Shown piece after piece: positions 1,731 to 28,589 of a stretch of 32,998 bases of DNA (position 1 is the stretch's first letter; each line of letters opens with the position of its first letter). The notes below the pieces were generated by a model, which did no database searches, was not told where the DNA came from, and worked only from the letters and a program-made list of their open reading frames with translations. Source of the stretch: Methanobacteriota archaeon (GTDB taxonomy: Archaea; Thermoplasmatota; Poseidoniia; Poseidoniales; Thalassarchaeaceae); NCBI GenBank assembly GCA_002702985.1, contig PADI01000061.1:9374-42371 (forward strand), read 5' to 3'. The translations under genes and the position numbers were made by a program.

Positions 1731-2162
1731 CTATTGTCGGTGATACCTACTGCCACGTTCTATCTCCGAGCATCTGTACAATTGTTCTAACAGTACAACA
1801 GCCGCCATTTCATACGTCATTGTCAATGGACCTAAACCCAATTTTTCATGTTCCAATGGGAAATCGTCTTTCCATCCATCTACAGGACCTATAGCGAGAT
1901 GAATCGTTTTTGCGCTACTTTTCCATGAATTCCATTTTTTGACAAATAGTTCTGTACTAATCGATGGTCCATTTTCGTCAAGAAGAATTAGATTTCCCCT
2001 TTCCTTCTGCAATTTTGAAATATATTCATCTAAACTTAATTTTCCAGAATGACGAATTAGGTTCACCCCACGCCCTTCTAATCTTGTGGAATAAGTATCG
2101 ATCAAGGTAGAATATGCACCATCTCTGGCTTTACCATGTAGGTGTACATTGATACGTGCCAT
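1731..2162 (-). CDS. rlmH: RlmH-like 23S rRNA pseudouridine-N3 methyltransferase (SPOUT)
   Basis: RlmH in bacteria methylates N3 of pseudouridine 1915 in helix 69 of 23S rRNA, using S-adenosylmethionine, on the 70S ribosome. The 143-residue length is close to the bacterial enzyme (about 155). Recognisable segments are LILLDENGPSIST (about 57-70), the knot glycines in HLAIGPVDGW (about 87-97), and the C-terminal family signature LTMTYEMAAVVLLEQLYR followed by GSRYHRQ. In the bacterial family the second segment usually reads IGG-A-G and the third has MT..H; the Tyr here in place of His is a small deviation. The gene precedes top6B in the same direction and diverges from the gene at 2242. No SD is visible before its ATG, so translation may be leaderless. 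Confidence 0.85.
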   Translation of the reverse strand: MARINVHLHGKARDGAYSTLIDTYSTRLEGRGVNLIRHSGKLSLDEYISKLQKERGNLILLDENGPSISTELFVKKWNSWKSSAKTIHLAIGPVDGWKDDFPLEHEKLGLGPLTMTYEMAAVVLLEQLYRCSEIERGSRYHRQ

Positions 2163-4714: not shown

Positions 4715-4787
4715 ATTTCTCGGAAGAGGCTCTATTCTTTCAGAGTTCGTCCGAATCGCTCTTAACAGAAATTCATTGGAACGTAAT

Positions 4788-5810
4788 GTGAACCGAACCA
4801 ATCACACTACAGATGAGTTCGATCTTATCAACTTACAAAAATTGAAACCATCCAGAATTGTAACCGATGGAGATTTAGACGGGATCTCTTCTGCAGCTAT
4901 TCTACTCAGAGCATTTCCAGATGCCGAAGTTATTTTTGCCCATCCACCAGGTATTCGTTCAGGAGTTTTTGATAAATTTATTGACAAATCAACAATTATC
5001 TGTGATTTACCATTCCATCCATCCGCTGGAGCAGTTATTGATCACCATTTGACAAACCAAATCTCTAATTCTGATGTTTTAGATCTATGGAGGCCAACAA
5101 TGTCTGCTGCAAGAATCGCCCACTCTATTGTTAAGACTCAACATAATCTAGATGATTTAGAAGAATTCATTGAATGGGTCGATCGTTTAGATGGAGGCGG
5201 TATTTCCAAAGAAGATTTTCTTTCTGATCATCCGATTGTAACACTCAGTAGAAGTGTTGATGCTCGAGAGTCTCCATCAACTGCTCTCTGGGTAGCTAAG
5301 TCAATATCAAAAGGAGTAACTATTGAAGAAATTCTCAATAATCCTATTGTGGATAAATTTGTACAAAAAAAATCTCATGAATCAAAGACCATCGATCATA
5401 TAATCAACAGCACTTTACGTATTGAAAATAGATTAGCTATTGTTCGATTTGATGGTACAGGAACCCGTACAGGAGGATATAGAATTACTGCCTCAGTTGG
5501 AGATTCTTGTGATGCTTGTATTATTATTCATGGTGATGAAAAAGGAAGTGTTTCTGGCAAAATTCCTCCATTAGGTGCCTCATTTTACACTAATTCATTT
5601 TTTCACAAGAATGGTGGTCTGGTAGATCTAACATTACTTGCAACAGCATTTGATCCAGATGGGGGAGGTCATTCAAATGCATGTGGTTGTAGAATTAAAC
5701 CACTAGATAAATTTGGTAATATTGAAGATAGAAATCCCAAATTAACTGACATTGAAGAAAACCTAACTCATTGGATCAAGATTTGGAATTCAAATCATCC
5801 CGATTATTGA
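4788..5810 (+). CDS. DHH-family phosphoesterase (RecJ-like / DHHA1)
   Basis: Members cleave phosphodiester bonds in single-stranded nucleic acids, nanoRNA or cyclic dinucleotides with two metal ions. With the GTG start at 4788 the product is 340 residues. Motifs in order are DGDLDG (27-32, motif I), ICDLPFH with Asp73 (motif II), the name-giving DHH (85-87, motif III), and the C-terminal DHHA1 substrate loop GGGH (292-295) followed by SNACGCRI. A TTG at 4776 is an alternative; there is no suitable ATG in this frame before the motifs. The gene is shorter than bacterial RecJ and lacks its OB domain, so the archaeal stand-alone class is more likely. Substrate cannot be assigned. The stop overlaps the convergent gene by 7 bp. 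Confidence 0.88.
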   Translation: MNRTNHTTDEFDLINLQKLKPSRIVTDGDLDGISSAAILLRAFPDAEVIFAHPPGIRSGVFDKFIDKSTIICDLPFHPSAGAVIDHHLTNQISNSDVLDLWRPTMSAARIAHSIVKTQHNLDDLEEFIEWVDRLDGGGISKEDFLSDHPIVTLSRSVDARESPSTALWVAKSISKGVTIEEILNNPIVDKFVQKKSHESKTIDHIINSTLRIENRLAIVRFDGTGTRTGGYRITASVGDSCDACIIIHGDEKGSVSGKIPPLGASFYTNSFFHKNGGLVDLTLLATAFDPDGGGHSNACGCRIKPLDKFGNIEDRNPKLTDIEENLTHWIKIWNSNHPDY

Positions 5811-6289
5811 AGGATATCCAATAATCGTAAAAATCCTAAGAATACAACAGCAATTAGTAACCATACCAGAAAATCACCTATACGTTGGTGAATCCCTCTT
5901 ACTTGTTTGATATTTTCTTTCTCTTCTCTCTGTTTGACTATTTTCGTTCCAGATCTGTACATTAAGTAAACAAAAAAAGCTAAAATTAATCCTAACCATC
6001 CATGTAAACTAACTATCGAGGAGATATCTGCATCTAATTTGAAATATCGATAAGCATCAGCAACAACAGCAAAGAAAATTACAACAGAGATGAATAGTAA
6101 TGACCGCCTTCCTGAAACTTCGTGTTCATTTACAATTTCACTTCTTTTTTTATCTTGAATTTTAGACCACATAATTCCCTTTTTTGTTTTCAATGCCTTC
6201 ATAATTTTCCATTGTCTGTATAGCCAGATCGCCATTGAAAAACCGAGAATAGGATGCAACAAGATGACTACCGCATCGACCACATCCAT
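5804..6289 (-). CDS. four-helix membrane protein with conserved-looking histidines (cytochrome b561/DUF4079-like)
   Basis: A 161-residue membrane protein with four hydrophobic segments (about 5-22, 62-80, 91-110, 138-158). Histidines sit at helix edges: HPILGFSMA near the first helix, HGWLGL in the third and HQRIGD before the fourth. This spacing resembles small bis-His b-type haem membrane proteins, but no signature is decisive and the family assignment is tentative. The loop after helix 1 is strongly basic, suggesting it is cytoplasmic. The start ATG at 6289 is divergent from the PIN-domain gene across a 108-bp gap. Confidence 0.6.
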   Translation of the reverse strand: MDVVDAVVILLHPILGFSMAIWLYRQWKIMKALKTKKGIMWSKIQDKKRSEIVNEHEVSGRRSLLFISVVIFFAVVADAYRYFKLDADISSIVSLHGWLGLILAFFVYLMYRSGTKIVKQREEKENIKQVRGIHQRIGDFLVWLLIAVVFLGFLRLLDILQ

Positions 6290-6397: not shown

Positions 6398-9300
6398 ATG
6401 GAGGACCGTCTCAAGGAAGCTATCGAACACGCCCTCCGTTCTGGAGACGATCCTAATACAAGAATTAGGACTTTAATTGGGAACGATGCCTTCAATTTAT
6501 TAGATAAACCATGGAAGTCAATTGCAATCACAATTCTTCGAAAAGAGGAACCAGTTAATCCCGATGAGGAAGTAAAAGTCAAGGTTACTCGAAGACGAGG
6601 AGGTCGAAGACGAGGAGTCAAAGGCTCTTCTGGAATCGAAGATTCGCTACCGTCACCATCACAAGTAATTTCTGGAAATTTCATACCAGCATTCAAACTT
6701 GCAACATTACTGATTCACAAGGGCAAAGATCCAAAAAATTGGGAATCAAAACTTGATTTAGATATTGACCAATTAAGAAACGATTGCATTTCTGGTATCC
6801 ATCCAGTTTGGTCAATAGCAGCTCGAGAGTGTCCATTAATCGCTCAGTTAGGTGCCTTTCCATCCTTGGAAGTCGAAATTCAGTCTGTAGAAGTAGATCA
6901 GAGTTGGATAGTAGCGTCAAGAATTGACCCAATGGATATTTCATCACTTGGTGACTTGTTAGAAAAATTCCCTACACTGAATCTCGGTTCAGCAGGTATT
7001 CTCAAAATCCAACGATTATCCAAAGGACTTCAAGGTAAGAAGATGAGAATGAATCAAATCCAGAAGAGTATTCCCGAAGAACTTCTTTCATCTACAATTC
7101 CAGAACATATGTTGTTGGGGGCATATCTTTTGATTGCAGCCGGCGAATTAGAAAAATCGTTAAAAGTTCTACAGTCAATTAAATCGAAAAATAAGATATT
7201 AATGAAATCAGTAAACGATGTTATCGCTTTAACTACTCTAAGATCAGGAGATATTTCTTCTTGGGATCATTGTTCAGAAGTTACAGGAAAAGACCCATTG
7301 TCGATTGTTATGCTTCTAGAAGCATGGAAAAACCCCCCTATTGATAGACAAATCGATTCAAAAAAGATTGAATCAGGGATGATGCATTTAGAATTACATG
7401 GTGAACCAGTATCAGATACTCTTCGTTGGATGTTAGTAAAACAGGTGGCAGAGACCGGGGATTTAGCAGCGGCAACTGAACTTGTTTTAGAAACAAGAAT
7501 TGATGATGAAGAATCATTTATTCAAGCCTCCTCGTTAGCAGGAGATAACGAATTATTGATTACTCGTTTAGTCGAAAAAGCTCCAGAATTTTCTTTGATT
7601 ACATGGTCAGAAATTGTGACCGATTCAAAATATCCAATGTTAATTCGTCTCACTTGTTCAAAGTTAATTGCAAATGAAAGAACACTACTTCCATCCGATG
7701 TTCTCGAGTCGACCATAGAGATATTATCTACTCAAGTAGACATTTTTTCCTTATCGTTGATATTGTATTCCTCAAAGATAGATGGGTCTACCAAACCCTA
7801 TTCTGTTCTACTTTGTAGTGCATTAGCACCTGCAAATATTGGCGAAGAGACAATACAGTGGCTTCAGAATGAAAGATCAATAGCTCATGACTCAATTACT
7901 TCTTCAGAAATACCTGAATTCCTGAGCATACATGAAGCTGCTTTGATTCGGTTATTGGATGGTGGAAATGCAAACTTGGACGAACTTCTTGGAAGATTAC
8001 CAGAATCCGGTTCAGAGGTTTTACGTGAAACACGTCGAGCATTGATGGATGGAGGAGATGGACTAGTTAGTGAAAAGAGAATTGATACTCTCGAAGAATC
8101 AATTGCTGCAGCTAATCTTTCCAGTTTAGAATCTTCATTGTTTCATGCAATTGTGAATCTCCTTAGAATGAATCGCGTAAATAATGAAATTCAGATGAGT
8201 GATAGTAGTCGTAAAGAACATGCGTCAGAATTACTTAATCAGATTATTGAAAATAATTTTTCTGCTATTTTCCTCAATCAAGTTCAACAAATGCTTCTAG
8301 AGCATGAAGTAGCATCCGAAAATTTTGTTTCATGGTTACAAGAAAATAGACCCGGCTCTGAATGGTCCCCTGTTGCAAATGCCGCAATTAAAGTAAATAT
8401 GGAACGCTATAGGGAGGCAGCCCGCTTATACAAACAAGCAGCCCCTCGTTTTCAAGCAGAACCGCATTGTGATTTTGAGATAGCCACCCAATTATATCGT
8501 AAATCATTAATTGGGTTTGCTCAGGCACAAGGATGGTCAGAAGCGATAGCATTATTGAACAGTCATGAAGAGTTGGCCACTACTATCACATCAAGATTCA
8601 AACTGTATTTACAAGTCTCTCATTCTGCTGAAGTACAACAACAAAACCGCGGTAAAAGAAATTCAAAGAATAGGGATATGTCACGAAAGGCTATATTTGA
8701 TTTTGTTGACGAAAAAGTACCAAACATATCTAGTGAAGAAGAAGAATCAACATATTCATCTCAAAGGGAAAGAAATAGGAGAAAGGAAGATCTAATTGAG
8801 TCTTTGATGACCTACCCTTCAAAACGTAATCTTCCTGAAGAACCATTTGTAGGTCGTGTTCGTGCGGCGTTAAACCACATTCGAGAAAAGAACAAGTCTG
8901 GAAGAACACGGATTGAAAATCGATTCCGAGAAGCGATAAAGGATGAAGAAGAGCCCTTGGAATTATTCAGTATTGCTAATGAAATAGCTTCTGAAGATCC
9001 TGTCCGCGCATTAGGGATGTTAGAACATGCCGTATCGGTTTGTAATTATCTTGGACGTATGGAAAAGGCAAGATTGATTGCATCAATGAAAACATTGTAT
9101 TCAAAACACGAGTCTAATATTCCAATTCGATCACGACGTATTTTAAGTTCAGTAGATTTAGCCCCATTAGTTGTTATTGATACAAATTTGTTGATAGATG
9201 CTTTATCAGATGCAATACTTAGAAAAATGGCTATGGATCGAAATGGAATTATTAATCCAAATTCATCTCTTTTATTCCACCATACTCTTCGACATTTACG

Positions 9301-9868
9301 TCTCGAACGTCGTATTCGAACCTATGTTCCTTTGACCGCCAAACATGAGTTGATGAATAAGATTGGCAATATTGAAACAGGTAAATTTGATCCTGAACGA
9401 ACCCTTTCTGTGTTTTCAGGTTCTAATCAACACATCAATCTAGATGCATATCGTGAAGCGATTACACCAGATATCTTAGAAAAAATGCATCATGAGATTC
9501 TCCAATCTTTCCATGATTGGGAACCATCATCATCAGAATTCTTAGAGGCTGTAGAAGGTGAAATGAATGCTGTTGAGTCATTTATTCAATCTCATAGTGA
9601 AATATACAGACGAGTTACAGATTTCAAAGATCAACGTGGTGCTGCTGATAAAAGAACTGAATTTAATGGAGATAGCATATATCCTGAATCTGGAGATTTA
9701 GATATAATGAGAACCGCAACTTACCTCGCATCCTCTATATATCCAAATATTGGCTCAGTTATTGTAGCAACCCGCGATTCTGATTTCACATTATTAGCTA
9801 GAGCATTAGAAGAGACATTAGGCGTTGGAGTTGCCAAGAATGCTTCAGAACTAGCTCAGTGGTTGTGA
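6398..9868 (+). CDS. 1156-residue helical-repeat protein with C-terminal PIN nuclease domain
   Basis: PIN domains are metal-dependent ribonucleases. The last about 235 residues begin with LVVIDTNLLIDAL (first acidic residue Asp928), carry a long insertion, then GDLDIMRTATYLAS (Asp1100, Asp1102) and VIVATRDSDFTLLARAL (Asp1127, Asp1129), matching the order of PIN active-site acids. The rest is not recognised: an Arg-rich patch near 62-75 (TRRRGGRRRG) that could touch RNA, then a long alpha-helical region with TPR-like units, clearest near 660-725 (MERYREAARLYKQAA), and a charged linker near 760-810. No antitoxin-like small gene is adjacent, and the size excludes a simple VapC toxin. The stop is 2 bp before the RluA-family gene, which suggests a joint role in RNA maturation; this is inference. 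Confidence 0.8.
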   Translation: MEDRLKEAIEHALRSGDDPNTRIRTLIGNDAFNLLDKPWKSIAITILRKEEPVNPDEEVKVKVTRRRGGRRRGVKGSSGIEDSLPSPSQVISGNFIPAFKLATLLIHKGKDPKNWESKLDLDIDQLRNDCISGIHPVWSIAARECPLIAQLGAFPSLEVEIQSVEVDQSWIVASRIDPMDISSLGDLLEKFPTLNLGSAGILKIQRLSKGLQGKKMRMNQIQKSIPEELLSSTIPEHMLLGAYLLIAAGELEKSLKVLQSIKSKNKILMKSVNDVIALTTLRSGDISSWDHCSEVTGKDPLSIVMLLEAWKNPPIDRQIDSKKIESGMMHLELHGEPVSDTLRWMLVKQVAETGDLAAATELVLETRIDDEESFIQASSLAGDNELLITRLVEKAPEFSLITWSEIVTDSKYPMLIRLTCSKLIANERTLLPSDVLESTIEILSTQVDIFSLSLILYSSKIDGSTKPYSVLLCSALAPANIGEETIQWLQNERSIAHDSITSSEIPEFLSIHEAALIRLLDGGNANLDELLGRLPESGSEVLRETRRALMDGGDGLVSEKRIDTLEESIAAANLSSLESSLFHAIVNLLRMNRVNNEIQMSDSSRKEHASELLNQIIENNFSAIFLNQVQQMLLEHEVASENFVSWLQENRPGSEWSPVANAAIKVNMERYREAARLYKQAAPRFQAEPHCDFEIATQLYRKSLIGFAQAQGWSEAIALLNSHEELATTITSRFKLYLQVSHSAEVQQQNRGKRNSKNRDMSRKAIFDFVDEKVPNISSEEEESTYSSQRERNRRKEDLIESLMTYPSKRNLPEEPFVGRVRAALNHIREKNKSGRTRIENRFREAIKDEEEPLELFSIANEIASEDPVRALGMLEHAVSVCNYLGRMEKARLIASMKTLYSKHESNIPIRSRRILSSVDLAPLVVIDTNLLIDALSDAILRKMAMDRNGIINPNSSLLFHHTLRHLRLERRIRTYVPLTAKHELMNKIGNIETGKFDPERTLSVFSGSNQHINLDAYREAITPDILEKMHHEILQSFHDWEPSSSEFLEAVEGEMNAVESFIQSHSEIYRRVTDFKDQRGAADKRTEFNGDSIYPESGDLDIMRTATYLASSIYPNIGSVIVATRDSDFTLLARALEETLGVGVAKNASELAQWL

Positions 9869-9870
9869 TT

Positions 9871-10767
9871 ATGTCCAGAATAGATCATACGATTTCGGAA
9901 GAAGGTAATTTACTTTCTATTATCGCTCTTATTCATCCAACTGCTTCTAAAAATTCTCTTAGAAAAATGATTGACTCTGGAAGAATATTGTTGAACAACA
10001 AAATATGTAGAATTGCAAAAACACCGGTAAGTCCAGGACAATTAATTTCAGTACTTCCAAAAAGTGAAGGAGATGCTCCACGTCAACTTAGGAGAAATCT
10101 AGCGAAAGATCCGGATATTCTGTTTGAAGATAAGCAAATTTTAGTTGTGAATAAACCTGTAGGTTTATTGTCGGTTTCAACTGATTTAGGTAACGAAAAA
10201 GACACAATGCATTCTAGAGTGTTTGAATGGGTTAAAGGCAAAGAAAAAGGTCGGATTTTTATTGTACATAGATTAGATAGAGAAACATCTGGATGTATGT
10301 TATTTGCAAAGGATATCCATACTAAGGAAATGTTACAACATCAATTCTTTGAGAGAAGCATTGAGCGTATTTATCATGCTGTTTTGGAAGGAATATTGCC
10401 CTCTGAAACTGGAATATCTCATGACTGGATACAACAAAGTAAAGATCTGAGGGTCAGAATTGTACCTTCTGAAAATTCAAAAGACTCTAAAGAAGCAATT
10501 ACTCATTGGAATGTAGAAGAAATAGTAGGTGATAGAACACTCGTTTCTCTTTCAATTAAGACCGGACGACGTGCCCAAATTCGATTACAAATGAATGCTT
10601 TGAATGCTCCAGTTTCAGGGGATACAATGTATGGTAGGGGTAGAAATTCAGCAGGAAGATTGTGTCTTCATGCCTCTTCTCTTCGATTTATTCATCCTAA
10701 TGGAGAAGAGATGTTTGTTACTTCCCAAATCCCATCGATATTCAGACGAATACTTCGAAATGGGTAA
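9871..10767 (+). CDS. RluA-family pseudouridine synthase with N-terminal S4 domain
   Basis: Isomerises uridine to pseudouridine in rRNA or tRNA. The 298-residue protein has an S4 RNA-binding domain (about 28-63, including NSLRKMIDSGRILLNN), then the catalytic domain with LVVNKPVGLLSV (91-102) and the invariant HRLDRETSG (133-141) holding the catalytic Asp136, and the later RRAQIRLQM and SGDTMYGR motifs. S4 plus this core is the RluC/RluD arrangement. The ATG at 9871 is used; an in-frame GTG at 9859 would overlap the preceding stop. It follows the PIN-domain gene with a 2-bp gap and converges on the M28 gene. This family is chiefly bacterial, so transfer is likely; the modified site is unknown. 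Confidence 0.92.
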   Translation: MSRIDHTISEEGNLLSIIALIHPTASKNSLRKMIDSGRILLNNKICRIAKTPVSPGQLISVLPKSEGDAPRQLRRNLAKDPDILFEDKQILVVNKPVGLLSVSTDLGNEKDTMHSRVFEWVKGKEKGRIFIVHRLDRETSGCMLFAKDIHTKEMLQHQFFERSIERIYHAVLEGILPSETGISHDWIQQSKDLRVRIVPSENSKDSKEAITHWNVEEIVGDRTLVSLSIKTGRRAQIRLQMNALNAPVSGDTMYGRGRNSAGRLCLHASSLRFIHPNGEEMFVTSQIPSIFRRILRNG

Positions 10768-20081: not shown

Positions 20082-23000
20082 ATGAATAGCGCAGGCTATG
20101 GAATACCTCGCACCCGTCGTCGGGCAATATCGATGGTATTTCTCATGCTTTTGTACAGTTTGTCTGCCCTTGCCTTTTCCCCTGTAGCCACTGCTCATGC
20201 GTCTAATGTTGCAGAATGGCCAATGTCTGGTTCAAATGACACTGGATGGGTATTGATTGAATCAACAGGAGCCGATCCATCTACTCAGACGATGGCTACT
20301 GGTGATATGTTTCATAATTTCGCACCTGGAGCTGAAATCTCTAATCTTACCTTTGAAATTCAGGTTAATGGATCTGATGGAGTATGGGTTACAGAACCTC
20401 AATTGACAATAATGGATACACAGACATCAATATTTGATTGGAGAACATACGGAGATTTTGGACGTGCTCTTGACTTTTTGAACGGTGATCCTCATTCTAG
20501 TCGCTTGAATCCAACTACAGATACCGGAGCATCGTACATTTTGCCCGCTGGTGCAAATATCACCGATCTTGTGATTGAAGCTCTACGTCCAGCAGATCCG
20601 TTGGTATCTTTTGAGAAAATTGATTTTGAAATAATTGATTGGGACACTCATCCCGCTGATCACCGTCTTTACGTTGCAACCTCAAATCAAGTTCTAACAG
20701 TTGATGCAAATAACGATCCTTGGGTTGTGGATATTTTTGATGGCATAGAGCCAACCGCACTTGAGGTAGATGCTACCAATGGCCGACTTCTTGTAGCAAC
20801 CTCGGATGATATCATTCATTCATTTTCGGCAGAAGATACAACTTATTTGGGTCAATTACCTCCACATGGTTTAGATCCAGCTAAAGTTCTCGAGGTTGAT
20901 TCATCAGGAATCCTCCATATTGCAACAGATTGTCATCTCTACATTGAAACACCATCAGGATGGCAAGATGTTCCCCTTTCAACATCTTCAGGCTCTACTG
21001 TTCAAGGACCATGTGATGGTTCACAATTAGAAGAAGTAGTAATTCCTACAGATATTCATTTTATTGGGGCTGAGGTCTATGTCGGAACGCAAGATCATGG
21101 AATTACTGTTTGGGACGGAACATCATATACTCATTGGGATACTCAAAATGCATTGACAAGCGATTCCATTGTTGATTTCGGACAAAGTGGTAATACACTT
21201 TTCATCGCCACTGCCGATGCTGGAATTATGCGTCGAGATGTTAGTACAAATTCATGGCTTGCATCATGGTCCAGCCAAAATTGGCTTTCAGGCGACGACG
21301 TTCAATCAATGGCAGTGACAGATAATTGGATTCATATTCTTGCGAATAATGTGTTACATGTTTACAATGCATCATCTGTAGTGTTTACTAGTACTATTTC
21401 TGCAACAAGTTTGGGGATCTCAGATCCATCAAATCTGATTCCTTGGATGGCTGGTGGATTGAGGGGGCCTGTAAACGAGTCAATTCTTTTGATTGGGTCT
21501 TCCGGGGCAGCTTCCATGATTGAAGCAACCGATGTCCCTACTTCTTTCTCTTCTGAAGTCTTCGCAAACTCACCTAGTTCTGAAGAAATGTATAGCATTA
21601 CTCGTTTAGGAGACGTATACTGGATAGGAGGACAAGGTTGGATAGACCGATTTGATAGTTCAGTAAATCGTTGGATTCAGCCAATTTTTACTGATGAGAT
21701 GAGTTTTGCAATAACTACTGATGGTACAGATGTTTATGTTGGAACCGAAGACTCTGGAATGATGGCTTTTGATGTAAATGGGACACTTTTACGAAGCATA
21801 GATGAGACAACCACACCTTCCATAGCATTTGATGGAATTACAGACATGTCCTACGATCAATATACTGATTCAATGGTTATTGCACATGGACAAAGAGGAG
21901 TAACTGTATGGAATATATCTTCAGACACAACAACTGAATTTAACACACAATCTGGAGGTTCTACAGAATTAGAAGCGAATGATGTTAATGATGTTGCAAC
22001 TAGAGCTGGTATTGCTTACCTAAGTTCTGAAGAAGATGGTGTTTTACGAATTGACTTGACGTCTAACACCGTACTTTCTCCTTGGCAATCTCTCGGTGCT
22101 GATGCACTGGACTTTGCACCTATAGCAAGCGATGGTTCAACAGTCTGGCTTGGGTTATCCGGCTTCGGTGTTTTGGTTTTTGATAGAGTAACAGGCGAAG
22201 TTCTCGATCGATGGACCTCTTCCGGAGGCAATAATCCTGGACAAGGTTCTGCTATGCAATCTGATTATGTGATTAGTTTAGAATACGATCCTTATGGAGG
22301 AGTATTGGTCGGTACAGCATTTGGTTTAGAACGTTTTACAAATGGTCAAGGTCAATCTGTTTCGCAAACTGGTAGATTTGATCCTCGCGTATTCTTTGAT
22401 ACCGACTCGGATTCGAATAGTATTTGGGCAGCTACTGATAGAGGATTATGTCGTTATACTTGGCAATTTCAACGTGATGATTGTTGGGATGATGGCGACG
22501 ATATTCCAGATGATGCCCGTTCTGTGAGGATTATTTCACCAACAAGAGTCTTGGTTGGGACTGAAAATGGTGCTGCAGTTTGGGATGTTACAAATGAAGA
22601 AGTAATTGAGGTCTGGGAAGCAGGTGAACAGACCAATAATGCAAAAGTTGTGGTTCACAACGATGTTGCATATGTGGGCTTCGATGGAGCAGGAATTCAA
22701 CGCTATGACCTTGTTAATAGTGAATGGTTGACACCTTGGGACCAAGCCTCCAATGCATTAGATAGCGACGGGGTTACATCTCTCGCCCTTGTTTCGAACA
22801 GTCATATTCTTTGGGCGGGGGGAGACTTTGGTCTCGCAGAATTTGATCTCATCAATGGTACTGTTCTTCGTAACTGGGATAAAGGGACCAATTCCGGTGG
22901 CCTTTCCTTATCTATCTACGATCCTATGCACATTACCATCCACAATAACATCCTACATTATGCTCAACAGCAGAATTATCAACAATCTCGAGATTTAATT

Positions 23001-26000
23001 TTCAGAGTCGATTTAACCAATAATACCAGTCTTTCACGATTAGATGTTGGGGATCGTATTGGAACTACTGGAATTACGAATAGTCTTGGCATGGTCGGAG
23101 ACGAACTTTGGGTAGGAGTAACTCCAAGTCAATGGTGGACTGGTGTTGGTGCTGTTGTTAGATGGAACGTATCTAATGGGTCATGGGCAGACACATTGGA
23201 ATCTACTGGAGAAATTGAAAGAGTGAATGCACAATATCTTGGCGACTGTTTCCCATTGGATCCTGCAGATTGTGAATTGTGGGTTGCATATGGAGAAAAT
23301 TATCTTCGAAGATTCAATGCAAATAACATGACCTTGCTTGGTTCATGGGATGATGTTGAAGGAAGAATTAGAGGAATGGTTGAATGGGATGGAGACTATC
23401 TTTTTGCATCTTTGAATGGTATTCTTCGTTTCGATCCTACAAACAATTCTTGGCTCACAAGTTGGACTCCAAGTAATGGTGGAATGCCATCTTCAGGAGA
23501 TGAGGATGTGTATTCAATGAAGGTCATTGGTGACGATCTTTGGGTTGGAACTTATGCACAGAATGGATGGCAGACAAATTCAGATGTTCATACTCTAAAT
23601 GGCACCACAGGACAGTGGTCAAGCACTGCGGCAGGATCAGGAAATCTTCCTTCCGGCTATCCCGCAGATTTCGCAGTTTGTGCTGATATTGTACACGTAG
23701 CAATGGGATATCTTGGATGGTGGGCTCCTGGTGGAATCGGTCGTTATGATACAACATCTTCAACCTGGATTTCTAATTTCCGTGCTCAAAGCGGAGAAAT
23801 TTCCAATGACGATGTCCGCTCTTTAGCATGTGATGATGCCAACGAAATCCTCTATTCAGCTTATGATACAGATGGCATAGGAGTTGGCAGATATCTGTAT
23901 GGTGGCCAAGATTTGAAACTATCAGATATCACTGCCCAAGATGGAATTTCTGAAGAAGCAGTATTCCCGGGTGGACTTTTGTACCATAATAACAAGTTGA
24001 TGATTTCTCATTTAGCAAATAATAGAGGAGGATTTTCTTTAATTGGAGTTGTTGGAGTAAATCTGGGGACAGGTTCTCTGGTGGATCCAGGCCTAGAAAC
24101 CGGGAGTATTGTAGTGAAACCTACAACTTCAGGTACTGATGCATATGCAATTGGTCGAAATGGAGGAACATCAGGCAATAGTCGTGTTGATTTGTTAGAT
24201 AGTACAGGTTTCACCCCCGGTGGAATCGATACCTTCACTGCATTAAGTAGTGGACGAGTTTTAGAAATTGTATCCTCAGGAAACAAGGTTTGGGCACTAG
24301 CTGGTGAAGATGTAACCTCTGGTTATGGCAATTCTATTCTTGAAGGAACATTGGTTAGTGGCGAAGTCCGTTGGGACCGTTCTTTTTCATTGGGTGCTGA
24401 AACAGGAAATGAATTACTAGTTGATGGGAATCGACTTTGGGTAACTAATGCAGGCTCTGGATTAACTCTCATAGATCTTTCAACAGGTAGCGTAATTCCT
24501 GTTGGTATTGGTTTTCATTGGATGCATGATGGGCTGGCTCAATGGAATGGAGATTTAGTCATTGGTTTGATGGGAACTCAATCTACTGCCACCGGTGTAC
24601 AAGTTTACGATACAACCAACTATTCATTTGTTGATGGAAAGTTACTTGCTGCTCTCCCTAGCAATTTTGTCTACGATTTCATTGAACATGATGGAAGAAT
24701 TTGGGTAGCAACCCTCGCTGGTTTAGGTATCTGGAATATAACAACACAAGATTGGGAAGATCCATTTACACTTCTAGATGGATTACCTAATCCAGTAGTC
24801 GTTCGACTTGAATCTTCTAATGGTAATTTATTATTAGGAACGAAGGGTGGTTTAGTTGAACTAAATACAACTAACATGTCTATTGTTAGAACATTAACTG
24901 CTCAGAGTGGGTTAATGGGATCATCCATTTCTGATTTCACAATAGTCCCCCCAACAACTGTAGTTAATGCTCTTGGAGTATCTACTTCCTTCCCTGAGAC
25001 AGTATTAGTCGGGCATGATGGTCAAGGAATCACTCGACCAGGGTATGCAGAAGTCCCTGTAGGCACTATGATTCCAACTGTTACTAGAGCAATTGATATG
25101 ATTCCAGATAATGATGTAATTAGTCTAACTGCAGATAGCTGGGGAGTTCACATAGCCACTGCTACTGCACCCACAGTTCATTGGAACGCATCTTCAGGAT
25201 CCATGGAAGATGGCCCCAATCCATTCACTATGGCAGGATATCCACCAACATCAATGGTTAGTAACGGTCTTGATCTAATTTCACTGACTAATATTGGCAT
25301 AACATATCTTGCTGCTAATGGAGATCATGGTGTCGACGATCAGATTCAGGTAACAAATCAATATGGTGCTTACATTGATTCATCTGGATTAGCAACTGTG
25401 GGCTTGGACGGCCTTCATTTGTACAGTCCGATTTCTCATATTGAAGAAGACAGATTCCGGAGTCGAAGAGCTTCACCGCTGAATGTTCTTATTGGCGGAA
25501 ATTCGATTAATATCACAAATCAAACATCTCCTGGTCGAAATATTATTCTTGCAACACCTGATTCACCAATTCCTCTTTCTACAATTGGTGCAGCAGGGCC
25601 AAATGGTCTGCAACTTGTTCAGAATGTAATCACTTCTGTTAGCCCAATTCAAGGCGCAGCAACATGGATGTCAACAACAAGTTTGAATTATACAGGAATA
25701 TGGGATCTTGCTTCAATTAATTCAGGCTTAGAAAATAATCTTCAAGATGCGATTAGAAATTCTGCTATGACTCCAGATGGTAGAAATGTCCACTTCCAAC
25801 TTCAAAGCCCTACAAATGGATCTATGTGGGTTAGGATGACATATGATTGGGAAAGAACTGAGCAGCCTACTGAGATTTTGAATTTCTATGACAGGCCTAA
25901 TGATGGAGGCGGAGTACTAGTCGCAGAATGGTCTCCATCTACAGACCACGGTTGGACTGCATATCGAGTTTACATATGGGAGACTTCAGAGTATCCAAAT

Positions 26001-28589
26001 GGACTTTCTTCAACAGATTTGTCAGGTACTAATTCGCAAGTAACTTATGACGCTAGAATAGCTGTATGGGGAACGATTGCTGCTGAATTTACCAGTTCTA
26101 TGGGCCAACCATTGGAAGATGGTAAGGAATATGGCATCAGTATAGTCACTGAATATTCAGGAGCACAATTAGGAGACCCTTCCAATTTTGGAACATTCGC
26201 GATTCCTATTGATGATGTCCCAGATGCACCTGCTTGGGCGAATGCAACTATGAATCCAGATCAAGATGGAGAAATGATTCTGGAATGGGCAGCATGTACA
26301 GAATTAGATCCTGCATTCATGCATGTTTGGAGATCTCCTGCCCCAATTACAAATGTACTTGGATTACCTGAATTCCGGGCGATAGCAGTCCCCCATTCTG
26401 AAGCCAATACGACTTCAATTAACATTCCAGTTAATCGTATGACTTGGATGGGGTTGGTTTGTACTGATGAAGCAGGTCAATATGATGCTGCAAATGCTAC
26501 AATCATCGGACCAGTTGTATGGACAAGCGAGGTAGATGACGGAATACCCCCAGCTCCAATTGAAGATCTTGATGCATTCGATACTCCAGATGATGAAGGT
26601 GGAAGAATCACTCTAGAATGGACACCCAATGAAGAGGATGATTGCGCATATTACGCTGTTTATGGTAAAGTAGCAGATTCTGATACTGTTCCAGATAATC
26701 TCGAAGGTTGGGACATTATCGAATATGTTCCTTCTTGTAATGTCGGTAATGGGCCCCCGGGTAGGCCAGGTAATCAACCAGGGCCACCAAGTGATGGAAT
26801 GGTACGAGTAACAGTTAGTGACATTGTAGGCCGCCCAATTCAAGATGGTATTGTACATTGGTTTGCAGTTGTAGCAGTAGATTTCTGGGAAAATTCAGAT
26901 ACTGAAAATGTTACAATTGTATCTGCATCGTCTATAGCAAATATTGGACCAGATCCTCCAGATAGAATCCAAAATGTAGAGGCTTGGGACACTCCAGATG
27001 ATGATGGAACAAGTATCGATGTTAGTTGGACACCTGGATTTGAACGTGATTTAGATCATTACACAGTTTGGGTTTCAGAACACCCAGTATCAGCCGTAGG
27101 GCCTAAGTGGAATGTTTGCGAGTCCGATCCTGATTCTTGTGGATTAGTTTTAGTTGAACAAAGAAGATGGAATGAAGAACGAATTGAGGTCACCATTGAT
27201 ACGGCTTTACTTGGAGGTAGTTCAGTCAATGGAGCAACACCATCATCGATCTCTCCTGGAATGACACTGTACGTGTCTGTTTCAGCTCACGATACATCTG
27301 GAAATGCCTTCTTAACTCAGTTAGAGACTGTAAATGTCGTTCCAATCGATAACCGTGGAGACATTACACCACCTAGTCGCTTGGCAGCACCTACGCTTTC
27401 TGATCGTCCAGATGATGTTGGAGATGGTTTGAACGTAAATTTCGAACTCAGTTTAGCAAGTGACGTTGAAGAATATCTAATCTTTGCAGACAGAGTCCCA
27501 TTCACTGACGCATCTTCAATGCAACCCGCTGCAGTAATTTCAAGATCTCCAGATTTCCCTGTGGAGGTAGAATTCTTTTCCTCTATGGAAGGTGATGATA
27601 GCGAACGATTACCATTGAGCCCAGGAGTATTGACTTGGGTAGCAGTCGTTCCTGTTGATTCCTCAGGAAATGCATTCTTTACCGATCTAGCAACATCTAC
27701 TCGCTCTCCGATAGACAATTCACTTCTTGATCCTGGTCTCCATCTTCCTGAGATCACGGGAATAAGTCTCCAATGGACCGATGATGGGAATCAAATTTTA
27801 GTCGAATGGAATTTAATTGAAGACGATCCAAATGTTAGAACATATTGGATTTATACTTCATTGGAACCATTTGAAGATACAAGAGAAGCAACTCTTGTTG
27901 AATCATATATTGTAGAAAATTCTTGGACATTTACACCGATATGTGGTATAGATTCGAACGAATCTAATATTTCAATTTGTAATGATGTCCCTCATTACAT
28001 TGCCGTAGTTGCACATGATGATGAGGTTCATCGAACAGGAGTCACACCTCAACCTTTAGCACCATGGGATCCAATAACAGCATCTAATCCAGGAGATACG
28101 GAAGATGCGGCTTGGTGGGCTGATTTCCTTAATCCTCAAACACTGATCATTCTATTACTGATGATACTGATTGTGGTGGCATTAGTTGCATTAGTAGTTG
28201 GTCGTCGAAGGGATCCTGCTGATGACTGGGCGCACCTTGCTCAAGGAACATATGGAATTCCTCAACAAGCTGCTTGGGATGATTCGCCTTCAGACGTAGA
28301 ACTTCCTCCTGGATTGCCTGAACCAACATCTGCAGTAGTCCAACAAGTAACTCCACAACAAGTGGCTCCAGTCGATGAATACAGTTATTCAAGGCAGAGT
28401 GCTAAAGATCTGGTTCAAGATTACTCTCTTCCATCTGAGGATTTACTAATCCAAGAGGCTCGCCATCACGATGAAAACAATGACAGATATCTCGATGCTA
28501 TTGAATTGCAGAGTGCTGCTGAAGCGCTTCGTTCAGGCGAACCAAAGTCTGATGATCTTGATATGTCATTCCTTGATGACTTACTTTGA
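20082..28589 (+). CDS. giant surface protein: propeller repeats, FN3-like domains, TM anchor, EF-hand tail
   Basis: A 2835-residue exported protein of unknown function. A signal peptide (basic PRTRRRA, then a hydrophobic core ending near ATAHA, about residue 40) is followed by a very long region (about 190-1790) of propeller-type repeats with recurring strands such as VYVGTEDSGMMAFDV, LFIATADAGIMRRDV and IWVATLAGLGIWNI, resembling two-component-regulator or WD/PQQ-type propellers. From about 1930 to 2650 there are FN3-like domains whose A-B strands repeat the phrase DTPDDDG...WTP (starts near 1933, 2164, 2300 and 2439). One TM helix (about 2687-2708) with a following RRR places the tail in the cytoplasm. 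The tail is Pro/Gln-rich and contains a canonical EF-hand loop DENNDRYLDAIE (2797-2808). Many NxS/T sites suggest glycosylation. An adhesin, polymer-binding or sensor role is inferred only. Confidence 0.85.
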   Translation: MNSAGYGIPRTRRRAISMVFLMLLYSLSALAFSPVATAHASNVAEWPMSGSNDTGWVLIESTGADPSTQTMATGDMFHNFAPGAEISNLTFEIQVNGSDGVWVTEPQLTIMDTQTSIFDWRTYGDFGRALDFLNGDPHSSRLNPTTDTGASYILPAGANITDLVIEALRPADPLVSFEKIDFEIIDWDTHPADHRLYVATSNQVLTVDANNDPWVVDIFDGIEPTALEVDATNGRLLVATSDDIIHSFSAEDTTYLGQLPPHGLDPAKVLEVDSSGILHIATDCHLYIETPSGWQDVPLSTSSGSTVQGPCDGSQLEEVVIPTDIHFIGAEVYVGTQDHGITVWDGTSYTHWDTQNALTSDSIVDFGQSGNTLFIATADAGIMRRDVSTNSWLASWSSQNWLSGDDVQSMAVTDNWIHILANNVLHVYNASSVVFTSTISATSLGISDPSNLIPWMAGGLRGPVNESILLIGSSGAASMIEATDVPTSFSSEVFANSPSSEEMYSITRLGDVYWIGGQGWIDRFDSSVNRWIQPIFTDEMSFAITTDGTDVYVGTEDSGMMAFDVNGTLLRSIDETTTPSIAFDGITDMSYDQYTDSMVIAHGQRGVTVWNISSDTTTEFNTQSGGSTELEANDVNDVATRAGIAYLSSEEDGVLRIDLTSNTVLSPWQSLGADALDFAPIASDGSTVWLGLSGFGVLVFDRVTGEVLDRWTSSGGNNPGQGSAMQSDYVISLEYDPYGGVLVGTAFGLERFTNGQGQSVSQTGRFDPRVFFDTDSDSNSIWAATDRGLCRYTWQFQRDDCWDDGDDIPDDARSVRIISPTRVLVGTENGAAVWDVTNEEVIEVWEAGEQTNNAKVVVHNDVAYVGFDGAGIQRYDLVNSEWLTPWDQASNALDSDGVTSLALVSNSHILWAGGDFGLAEFDLINGTVLRNWDKGTNSGGLSLSIYDPMHITIHNNILHYAQQQNYQQSRDLIFRVDLTNNTSLSRLDVGDRIGTTGITNSLGMVGDELWVGVTPSQWWTGVGAVVRWNVSNGSWADTLESTGEIERVNAQYLGDCFPLDPADCELWVAYGENYLRRFNANNMTLLGSWDDVEGRIRGMVEWDGDYLFASLNGILRFDPTNNSWLTSWTPSNGGMPSSGDEDVYSMKVIGDDLWVGTYAQNGWQTNSDVHTLNGTTGQWSSTAAGSGNLPSGYPADFAVCADIVHVAMGYLGWWAPGGIGRYDTTSSTWISNFRAQSGEISNDDVRSLACDDANEILYSAYDTDGIGVGRYLYGGQDLKLSDITAQDGISEEAVFPGGLLYHNNKLMISHLANNRGGFSLIGVVGVNLGTGSLVDPGLETGSIVVKPTTSGTDAYAIGRNGGTSGNSRVDLLDSTGFTPGGIDTFTALSSGRVLEIVSSGNKVWALAGEDVTSGYGNSILEGTLVSGEVRWDRSFSLGAETGNELLVDGNRLWVTNAGSGLTLIDLSTGSVIPVGIGFHWMHDGLAQWNGDLVIGLMGTQSTATGVQVYDTTNYSFVDGKLLAALPSNFVYDFIEHDGRIWVATLAGLGIWNITTQDWEDPFTLLDGLPNPVVVRLESSNGNLLLGTKGGLVELNTTNMSIVRTLTAQSGLMGSSISDFTIVPPTTVVNALGVSTSFPETVLVGHDGQGITRPGYAEVPVGTMIPTVTRAIDMIPDNDVISLTADSWGVHIATATAPTVHWNASSGSMEDGPNPFTMAGYPPTSMVSNGLDLISLTNIGITYLAANGDHGVDDQIQVTNQYGAYIDSSGLATVGLDGLHLYSPISHIEEDRFRSRRASPLNVLIGGNSINITNQTSPGRNIILATPDSPIPLSTIGAAGPNGLQLVQNVITSVSPIQGAATWMSTTSLNYTGIWDLASINSGLENNLQDAIRNSAMTPDGRNVHFQLQSPTNGSMWVRMTYDWERTEQPTEILNFYDRPNDGGGVLVAEWSPSTDHGWTAYRVYIWETSEYPNGLSSTDLSGTNSQVTYDARIAVWGTIAAEFTSSMGQPLEDGKEYGISIVTEYSGAQLGDPSNFGTFAIPIDDVPDAPAWANATMNPDQDGEMILEWAACTELDPAFMHVWRSPAPITNVLGLPEFRAIAVPHSEANTTSINIPVNRMTWMGLVCTDEAGQYDAANATIIGPVVWTSEVDDGIPPAPIEDLDAFDTPDDEGGRITLEWTPNEEDDCAYYAVYGKVADSDTVPDNLEGWDIIEYVPSCNVGNGPPGRPGNQPGPPSDGMVRVTVSDIVGRPIQDGIVHWFAVVAVDFWENSDTENVTIVSASSIANIGPDPPDRIQNVEAWDTPDDDGTSIDVSWTPGFERDLDHYTVWVSEHPVSAVGPKWNVCESDPDSCGLVLVEQRRWNEERIEVTIDTALLGGSSVNGATPSSISPGMTLYVSVSAHDTSGNAFLTQLETVNVVPIDNRGDITPPSRLAAPTLSDRPDDVGDGLNVNFELSLASDVEEYLIFADRVPFTDASSMQPAAVISRSPDFPVEVEFFSSMEGDDSERLPLSPGVLTWVAVVPVDSSGNAFFTDLATSTRSPIDNSLLDPGLHLPEITGISLQWTDDGNQILVEWNLIEDDPNVRTYWIYTSLEPFEDTREATLVESYIVENSWTFTPICGIDSNESNISICNDVPHYIAVVAHDDEVHRTGVTPQPLAPWDPITASNPGDTEDAAWWADFLNPQTLIILLLMILIVVALVALVVGRRRDPADDWAHLAQGTYGIPQQAAWDDSPSDVELPPGLPEPTSAVVQQVTPQQVAPVDEYSYSRQSAKDLVQDYSLPSEDLLIQEARHHDENNDRYLDAIELQSAAEALRSGEPKSDDLDMSFLDDLL

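Follow-up and report, generated by a model that had tools for sequence, protein, structure and literature searches.

What kind of protein is encoded by a 1,156-codon frame that appears to end in a PIN nuclease domain and carries more than 900 residues of no recognised family ahead of it? We examined this in the window, the whole 32,998-nucleotide stretch of Poseidoniales DNA analysed here. An earlier note, made from the letters alone, had placed a very large PIN-domain protein at 6398-9868, and we found the open reading frame intact there, with 1,156 codons and a single copy in its own genome. The start ATG at 6398 fits the conserved N-terminus of the relatives (MExYLxxC), and orthologues share 27-95% identity along the full length. 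Codon comparison with three congeners gave dN/dS values of 0.085-0.11, the same in the N-terminal part and in the PIN part, indicating that selection maintains both halves. The gene is clearly a genuine protein-coding gene under strong purifying selection on both parts. Its features and neighbours are listed in Table 1.

Table 1. Positions of the solenoid-PIN gene, its parts and its neighbours in the window.
Feature	Position	Strand	Basis
Solenoid-PIN gene, 1,156 aa plus stop	6398..9868	+	Intact ORF, orthologue alignment
Predicted all-helical TPR/PPR-like solenoid, residues 1-915	6398..9142	+	AlphaFold model, Foldseek
Disordered Arg-rich loop, residues 57-78, R72 invariant	6566..6631	+	Model and alignment
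Near-invariant GxHPxW motif, residues 133-138	6794..6811	+	Orthologue alignment
PIN domain region, residues 916-1156	9143..9865	+	Profile match, domain model
Codon of D928, invariant acid	9179..9181	+	Orthologue alignment
Codon of E984, invariant acid	9347..9349	+	Orthologue alignment
Helical insert within PIN domain, about residues 999-1079 (about 80 residues)	9392..9634	+	AlphaFold model
Codon of D1100, invariant acid	9695..9697	+	Orthologue alignment
Codon of D1127, invariant acid	9776..9778	+	Orthologue alignment
Codon of D1129, invariant acid	9782..9784	+	Orthologue alignment
DHH-superfamily gene, upstream and syntenic across the two families	4776..5810	+	Annotation, loci comparison
Small membrane protein, cytochrome b561-like, between DHH and PIN genes	5804..6289	-	Annotation, loci comparison
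RluA-family pseudouridine synthase, PIN-gene neighbour within the window's genus alone	9871..10767	+	Annotation, loci comparison

The C-terminal domain was compared with PIN families by profile and by fold. No single member passed the Pfam cutoff for PIN families, and individual members matched PIN, PIN_12 and NYN below threshold, at 1e-3 to 1e-4. For comparison, PIN, PIN_4 and NYN profiles were built from loci of the same phylum. Using hhalign, we found that the profile of the whole domain matched the combined PIN profile at 82% and that removal of the helical insert gave 95.7% (E 9e-9, a single comparison); the column-shuffled and reversed controls stayed at or below 0.4%. AlphaFold modelled the domain alone with good confidence (pLDDT 86.7, pTM 0.86). 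When this model was searched against the PDB, the top two matches were entries for chain K of the nuclear exosome (Rrp44/Dis3), with prob values of 0.80 and 0.72, and the PIN domain of SMG6/EST1A (2dok) was also among the matches, all of them weak (E >=0.11; TMq <=0.34 overall) and none reaching E<=0.001. The viral structure library gave nothing useful, with a viral 5'-3' exonuclease and flap-like models among very weak fold matches.

The acidic residues of this domain are strongly conserved. In the aligned orthologues, D928 (109/109), E984 (110/110), D1100 (109/109), D1127 (108/108) and D1129 (108/108) are invariant, and they follow the order D..E..D..DxD that is canonical for active PIN nucleases. 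The note had assigned the active site to Asp928, Asp1100/1102 and Asp1127/1129; D928, D1100, D1127 and D1129 hold, while position 1102 varies (D in 48, E in 22, T in 16, and others) and E984 had been overlooked. Loss of the acids in orthologues had been named as a refutation, and all five invariant acids are kept across about 109 of them. Based on the invariant acids and the profile similarity, the C-terminal domain is probably an active PIN-type nuclease.

The long N-terminal part was modelled as a solenoid. The full-length AlphaFold model (pLDDT 83.3, pTM 0.63) is 68% helix over residues 1-915, with a median hairpin spacing of 35 residues, so that the predicted model contains a helix-hairpin solenoid of the TPR/PPR type, which has a period of about 34-35 residues; the helical repeats read earlier from the sequence are borne out to this extent. 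Foldseek retrieved TPR/PPR-type solenoids (IFT-A subunits, Ski3, Ctr9, Naa15 and PPR10) as generic matches with low TM-scores. TPR/PPR repeats were not recognisable in sequence, which gave only weak matches of single members, such as TPR_19 at E 0.0047. Residues 1-915 matched no family in Pfam, NCBIfam or the PDB sequences, and neither sequence nor profile searches of the PDB gave a credible match. The whole protein had no match above cutoff in Pfam, NCBIfam or the PDB sequences and no credible match in PHROGs or PADLOC; a PADLOC match to BrxF (E 8e-4), covering 44 residues of the solenoid, was dismissed as a chance similarity. The claim of more than 900 residues matching no known family therefore agrees with our searches, and the outcome named as its refutation, a clear match to a known large family, did not appear by sequence, the structural neighbours being generic TPR/PPR-type solenoids.

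Near the N-terminus, the Arg-rich patch that had been noticed is TRRRGGRRRG, inside residues 57-78, which are predicted to be disordered. R72 is invariant (107/107 aligned orthologues) and R71 is present in 105/107. A second near-invariant motif is G133-x-H135-P136-x-W138. The loop and this motif are candidates for contact with RNA or a partner.

We then compared the genomic neighbourhoods. The next gene had been said to modify RNA, which is correct in the window, where the ATG of the RluA gene at 9871 lies 2 bp past the PIN-gene stop; the linkage is conserved only within the window's genus, as RluA immediately follows the PIN gene in all congeners read but in 0/19 loci from other genera. This suggests that its placement is a genus-specific gain or rearrangement, and RluA as a functional partner was rejected beyond the genus. 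Upstream, most genomes of the two families have a distantly RecJ-like DHH-superfamily gene of the same orientation, which belongs to a long block of conserved gene order comprising the RlmH-like, cobalamin adenosyltransferase, Nudix, DHH and b561-like genes. Since other genes interrupt the DHH-PIN linkage in several loci of the second family (f2) and the DHH gene persists where the PIN gene is missing, we read the adjacency as shared synteny with at best a weak functional link, and an obligate DHH partnership is weakened. No RNA-related operon partner conserved across the order was found. Likewise, no small partner is conserved beside the PIN gene in 20 neighbourhoods, in agreement with the earlier statement that an antitoxin is lacking.

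Other genes in these regions were also recorded. The RlmH-like gene (window 1731-2162, minus strand) is a homologue, in an archaeon, of the 23S rRNA pseudouridine-1915 methyltransferase (E 5e-16, below the NCBIfam cutoff), and it is kept in the neighbourhood across both families. At 20082-28589 (plus strand), an ORF of 2,835 aa, for which Pfam gave nothing at E <= 0.001, lies immediately before genes for a class IV aminotransferase and a chorismate-binding/GATase fusion. An open frame of 467-476 aa with an NYN domain was seen in two f2 genomes (G014:C73:62726-63052 and G034:C12:22422-22811) and in no other genome sampled from the order.

The distribution of the gene was then determined. A protein search found orthologues in 153/195 Poseidoniia genomes, all 153 being Poseidoniales, and a profile search of 293 genomes of the phylum gave matches confined to two families of the window's order, with 0 matches among the listed genomes of the sister family and likewise none in other classes of the phylum. 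Within the phylum, the gene is specific to Poseidoniales; outside it, genome contigs were searched with patterns from a single protein, which detect close relatives. Inside the order, the gene is missing in all 11 sampled genomes of genus g4 and in all four of genus g20; three genomes of a further genus (g11) that lack it are incomplete assemblies. Seven loci of g4 and g20 were read; all keep the flanking gene order, and no pseudogene remnant was found at the same locus. In g20 locus L077, about 17 bp (7879-7895) separate the end of the DHH ORF from the next gene. In the tree of 107 members, the second family forms a single clade with support 1.0, as does the window's genus. Taken together, the distribution, the clean absences in g4 and g20 and the clades of the tree indicate that the gene is old, vertically inherited and dispensable in Poseidoniales. 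The plasmid, phage and viral collections gave 0 matches, and a mobile or viral origin was rejected. The literature searched contained no mention of this protein.

The loci of g4 and g20 (L072-L078) show the clean absence between the DHH gene and the next conserved gene. In g4 loci L072 and L074, an unrelated 274-aa ORF, apparently of membrane type, stands in place of the PIN gene.

We propose, with a probability of about 0.5 for the statement as a whole, that the solenoid-PIN protein is a Poseidoniales-specific, vertically inherited, metal-dependent endoribonuclease whose solenoid and Arg-rich loop bind RNA or partners and which serves dispensable RNA turnover or surveillance. The TPR/PPR-like solenoid and the loop would bind RNA and/or partner proteins and deliver single-stranded RNA to the PIN domain at the C-terminus; there D928, E984, D1100, D1127 and D1129 would hold a divalent metal and cut the RNA. 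We infer metal-dependent RNA cleavage, the function of the solenoid and the cellular role from these features; that the substrate is RNA rather than DNA is assumed from the Arg-rich loop and the PIN family, and it is plausible that the helical repeats select it. RNA turnover or surveillance as the cellular role is put forward tentatively, with an organisation that would be SMG6-like and with no claim of full-length homology to SMG6. A bolder version, in which a dedicated mRNA or ribosome quality-control nuclease of planktonic Poseidoniales evolved the SMG6-like plan independently as an archaeal RNA-surveillance endonuclease, seems unlikely. The earlier suggestion of an undescribed RNA enzyme combining helical repeats with an active PIN domain survives in its core, through the PIN acids, the helical N-terminal part of no family and the absence of a toxin-antitoxin setting, and loses D1102 and the RluA context.

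Other roles were weighed against the same evidence. A dedicated RNA maturase resembling PRORP, in which the solenoid would be specific for a single structured RNA (pre-tRNA, pre-rRNA or another stable species) that the PIN domain processes by one precise cut, would share with PRORP the plan of a solenoid plus a PIN-superfamily nuclease (PMC10941002); PPR10 is among the generic fold matches of the solenoid, and in one genus the neighbouring RluA is an RNA-modifying enzyme. However, the window's genome and 52/60 genomes of the class, PIN-lacking ones included, contain the RNase P RNA (RF00373), and 53/60 contain a Nob1-type PIN_6, so that the two obvious maturation steps are already covered; both persist in some genera from which the solenoid-PIN gene is absent. 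The solenoid-PIN protein therefore replaces neither the RNA-based RNase P nor Nob1, and both replacements were rejected. The protein also has no zinc-binding CxxC motif, and the clean absence of the gene in related genera suggests no essential step. We consider it improbable, about as much so as the bolder surveillance version.

A stress- or virus-triggered effector is less probable still. Here the solenoid would sense a signal and the PIN domain would cut tRNA, rRNA or mRNA and shut down translation, as VapC-type PIN domains do; the solenoid could be a regulatory sensor, and the gene is dispensable in some genera. The lack of an antitoxin, of mobility and of a patchy distribution argues against any toxin or defence role, however, as do the fixed chromosomal position among housekeeping genes, the vertical tree, the strong purifying selection, the lack of a credible PADLOC match and the absence from viral, phage and plasmid collections. 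Least probable of all is a nuclease that acts on DNA in repair or replication, a FEN/XPG-like PIN-superfamily enzyme with a helical scaffold. Flap nucleases belong to this superfamily, the DHH gene upstream has a distant likeness to RecJ and the very weak viral fold matches include exonuclease and flap-like models, but the profile similarity is to PIN, PIN_12 and NYN rather than to FEN families, and the best solved fold matches, though weak, are RNase PINs.

Poseidoniales are among the most abundant archaea of the surface ocean, and here they carry a large conserved gene for a probably active PIN nuclease joined to a 900-residue solenoid outside every family searched. The protein probably represents an RNA-degrading enzyme that has not been described before. 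Should it prove to be an endoribonuclease, archaeal RNA metabolism would gain a large RNA-cutting enzyme with a scaffold, and SMG6 and PRORP would have a counterpart among prokaryotes. With related genera that naturally lack the gene, its role can be tested by comparing RNA ends across lineages.

Among known systems, VapC and other standalone PIN toxins share the order of the acids and the profile similarity to PF01850. Those toxins are small and have an adjacent antitoxin, whereas the solenoid-PIN protein is giant, chromosomal, vertically inherited and without one. When folds were compared, the PIN model came closest to the PIN domain of Rrp44/Dis3, though the match is weak (prob 0.80, E 0.11). 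In Rrp44 the PIN domain precedes an RNB exonuclease, whereas no RNB-type domain was detected in the solenoid-PIN protein. HARPs are small proteins without a solenoid, and the solenoid-PIN family reaches their model TIGR03875 at E 0.09 in 1/44 members only. With HARP, an archaeal and bacterial PIN-like RNase P homologue that coexists with RNA-based RNase P and is dispensable (PMC10941002), it would nevertheless share the character of a dispensable archaeal PIN-superfamily RNase beside RNA-based RNase P, its own activity being predicted.

PRORP, the eukaryotic protein-only RNase P, joins a PPR solenoid to a PIN-superfamily (NYN) nuclease (PMC10941002), and the likeness lies in this joining of a helical solenoid to such a nuclease. 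The solenoid here spans about 915 residues, against the 5-6 PPRs of PRORP, and RNA-based RNase P is still present. The split zinc-binding domain of PRORP (three Cys, one His) is missing: there is no CxxC, and of 7 Cys in total only C130 is nearly invariant. SMG6 (EST1A), the endonuclease of metazoan nonsense-mediated decay, likewise carries an active PIN domain at its C-terminus, behind a TPR-like helical domain. Its PIN acids are D1251, E1282, D1353 and D1392, and PRORP1 and VapC15 have a fifth acid (PMC12923823). The solenoid-PIN protein differs from SMG6 in its much longer solenoid, its five-acid site and the PIN insert of about 80 residues, and it is archaeal and order-restricted. As for SMG5/SMG6/EST1 features, no member gave an EST1/14-3-3-like or PIN_4 match, and a PIN_4 search had no match among the listed genomes of the order. 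Judged by these sequence features, membership in either the SMG6 or the PRORP family fails, and the likeness is one of plan: the solenoid-PIN protein is built like the animal enzymes that destroy faulty mRNA, but is apparently not descended from them.
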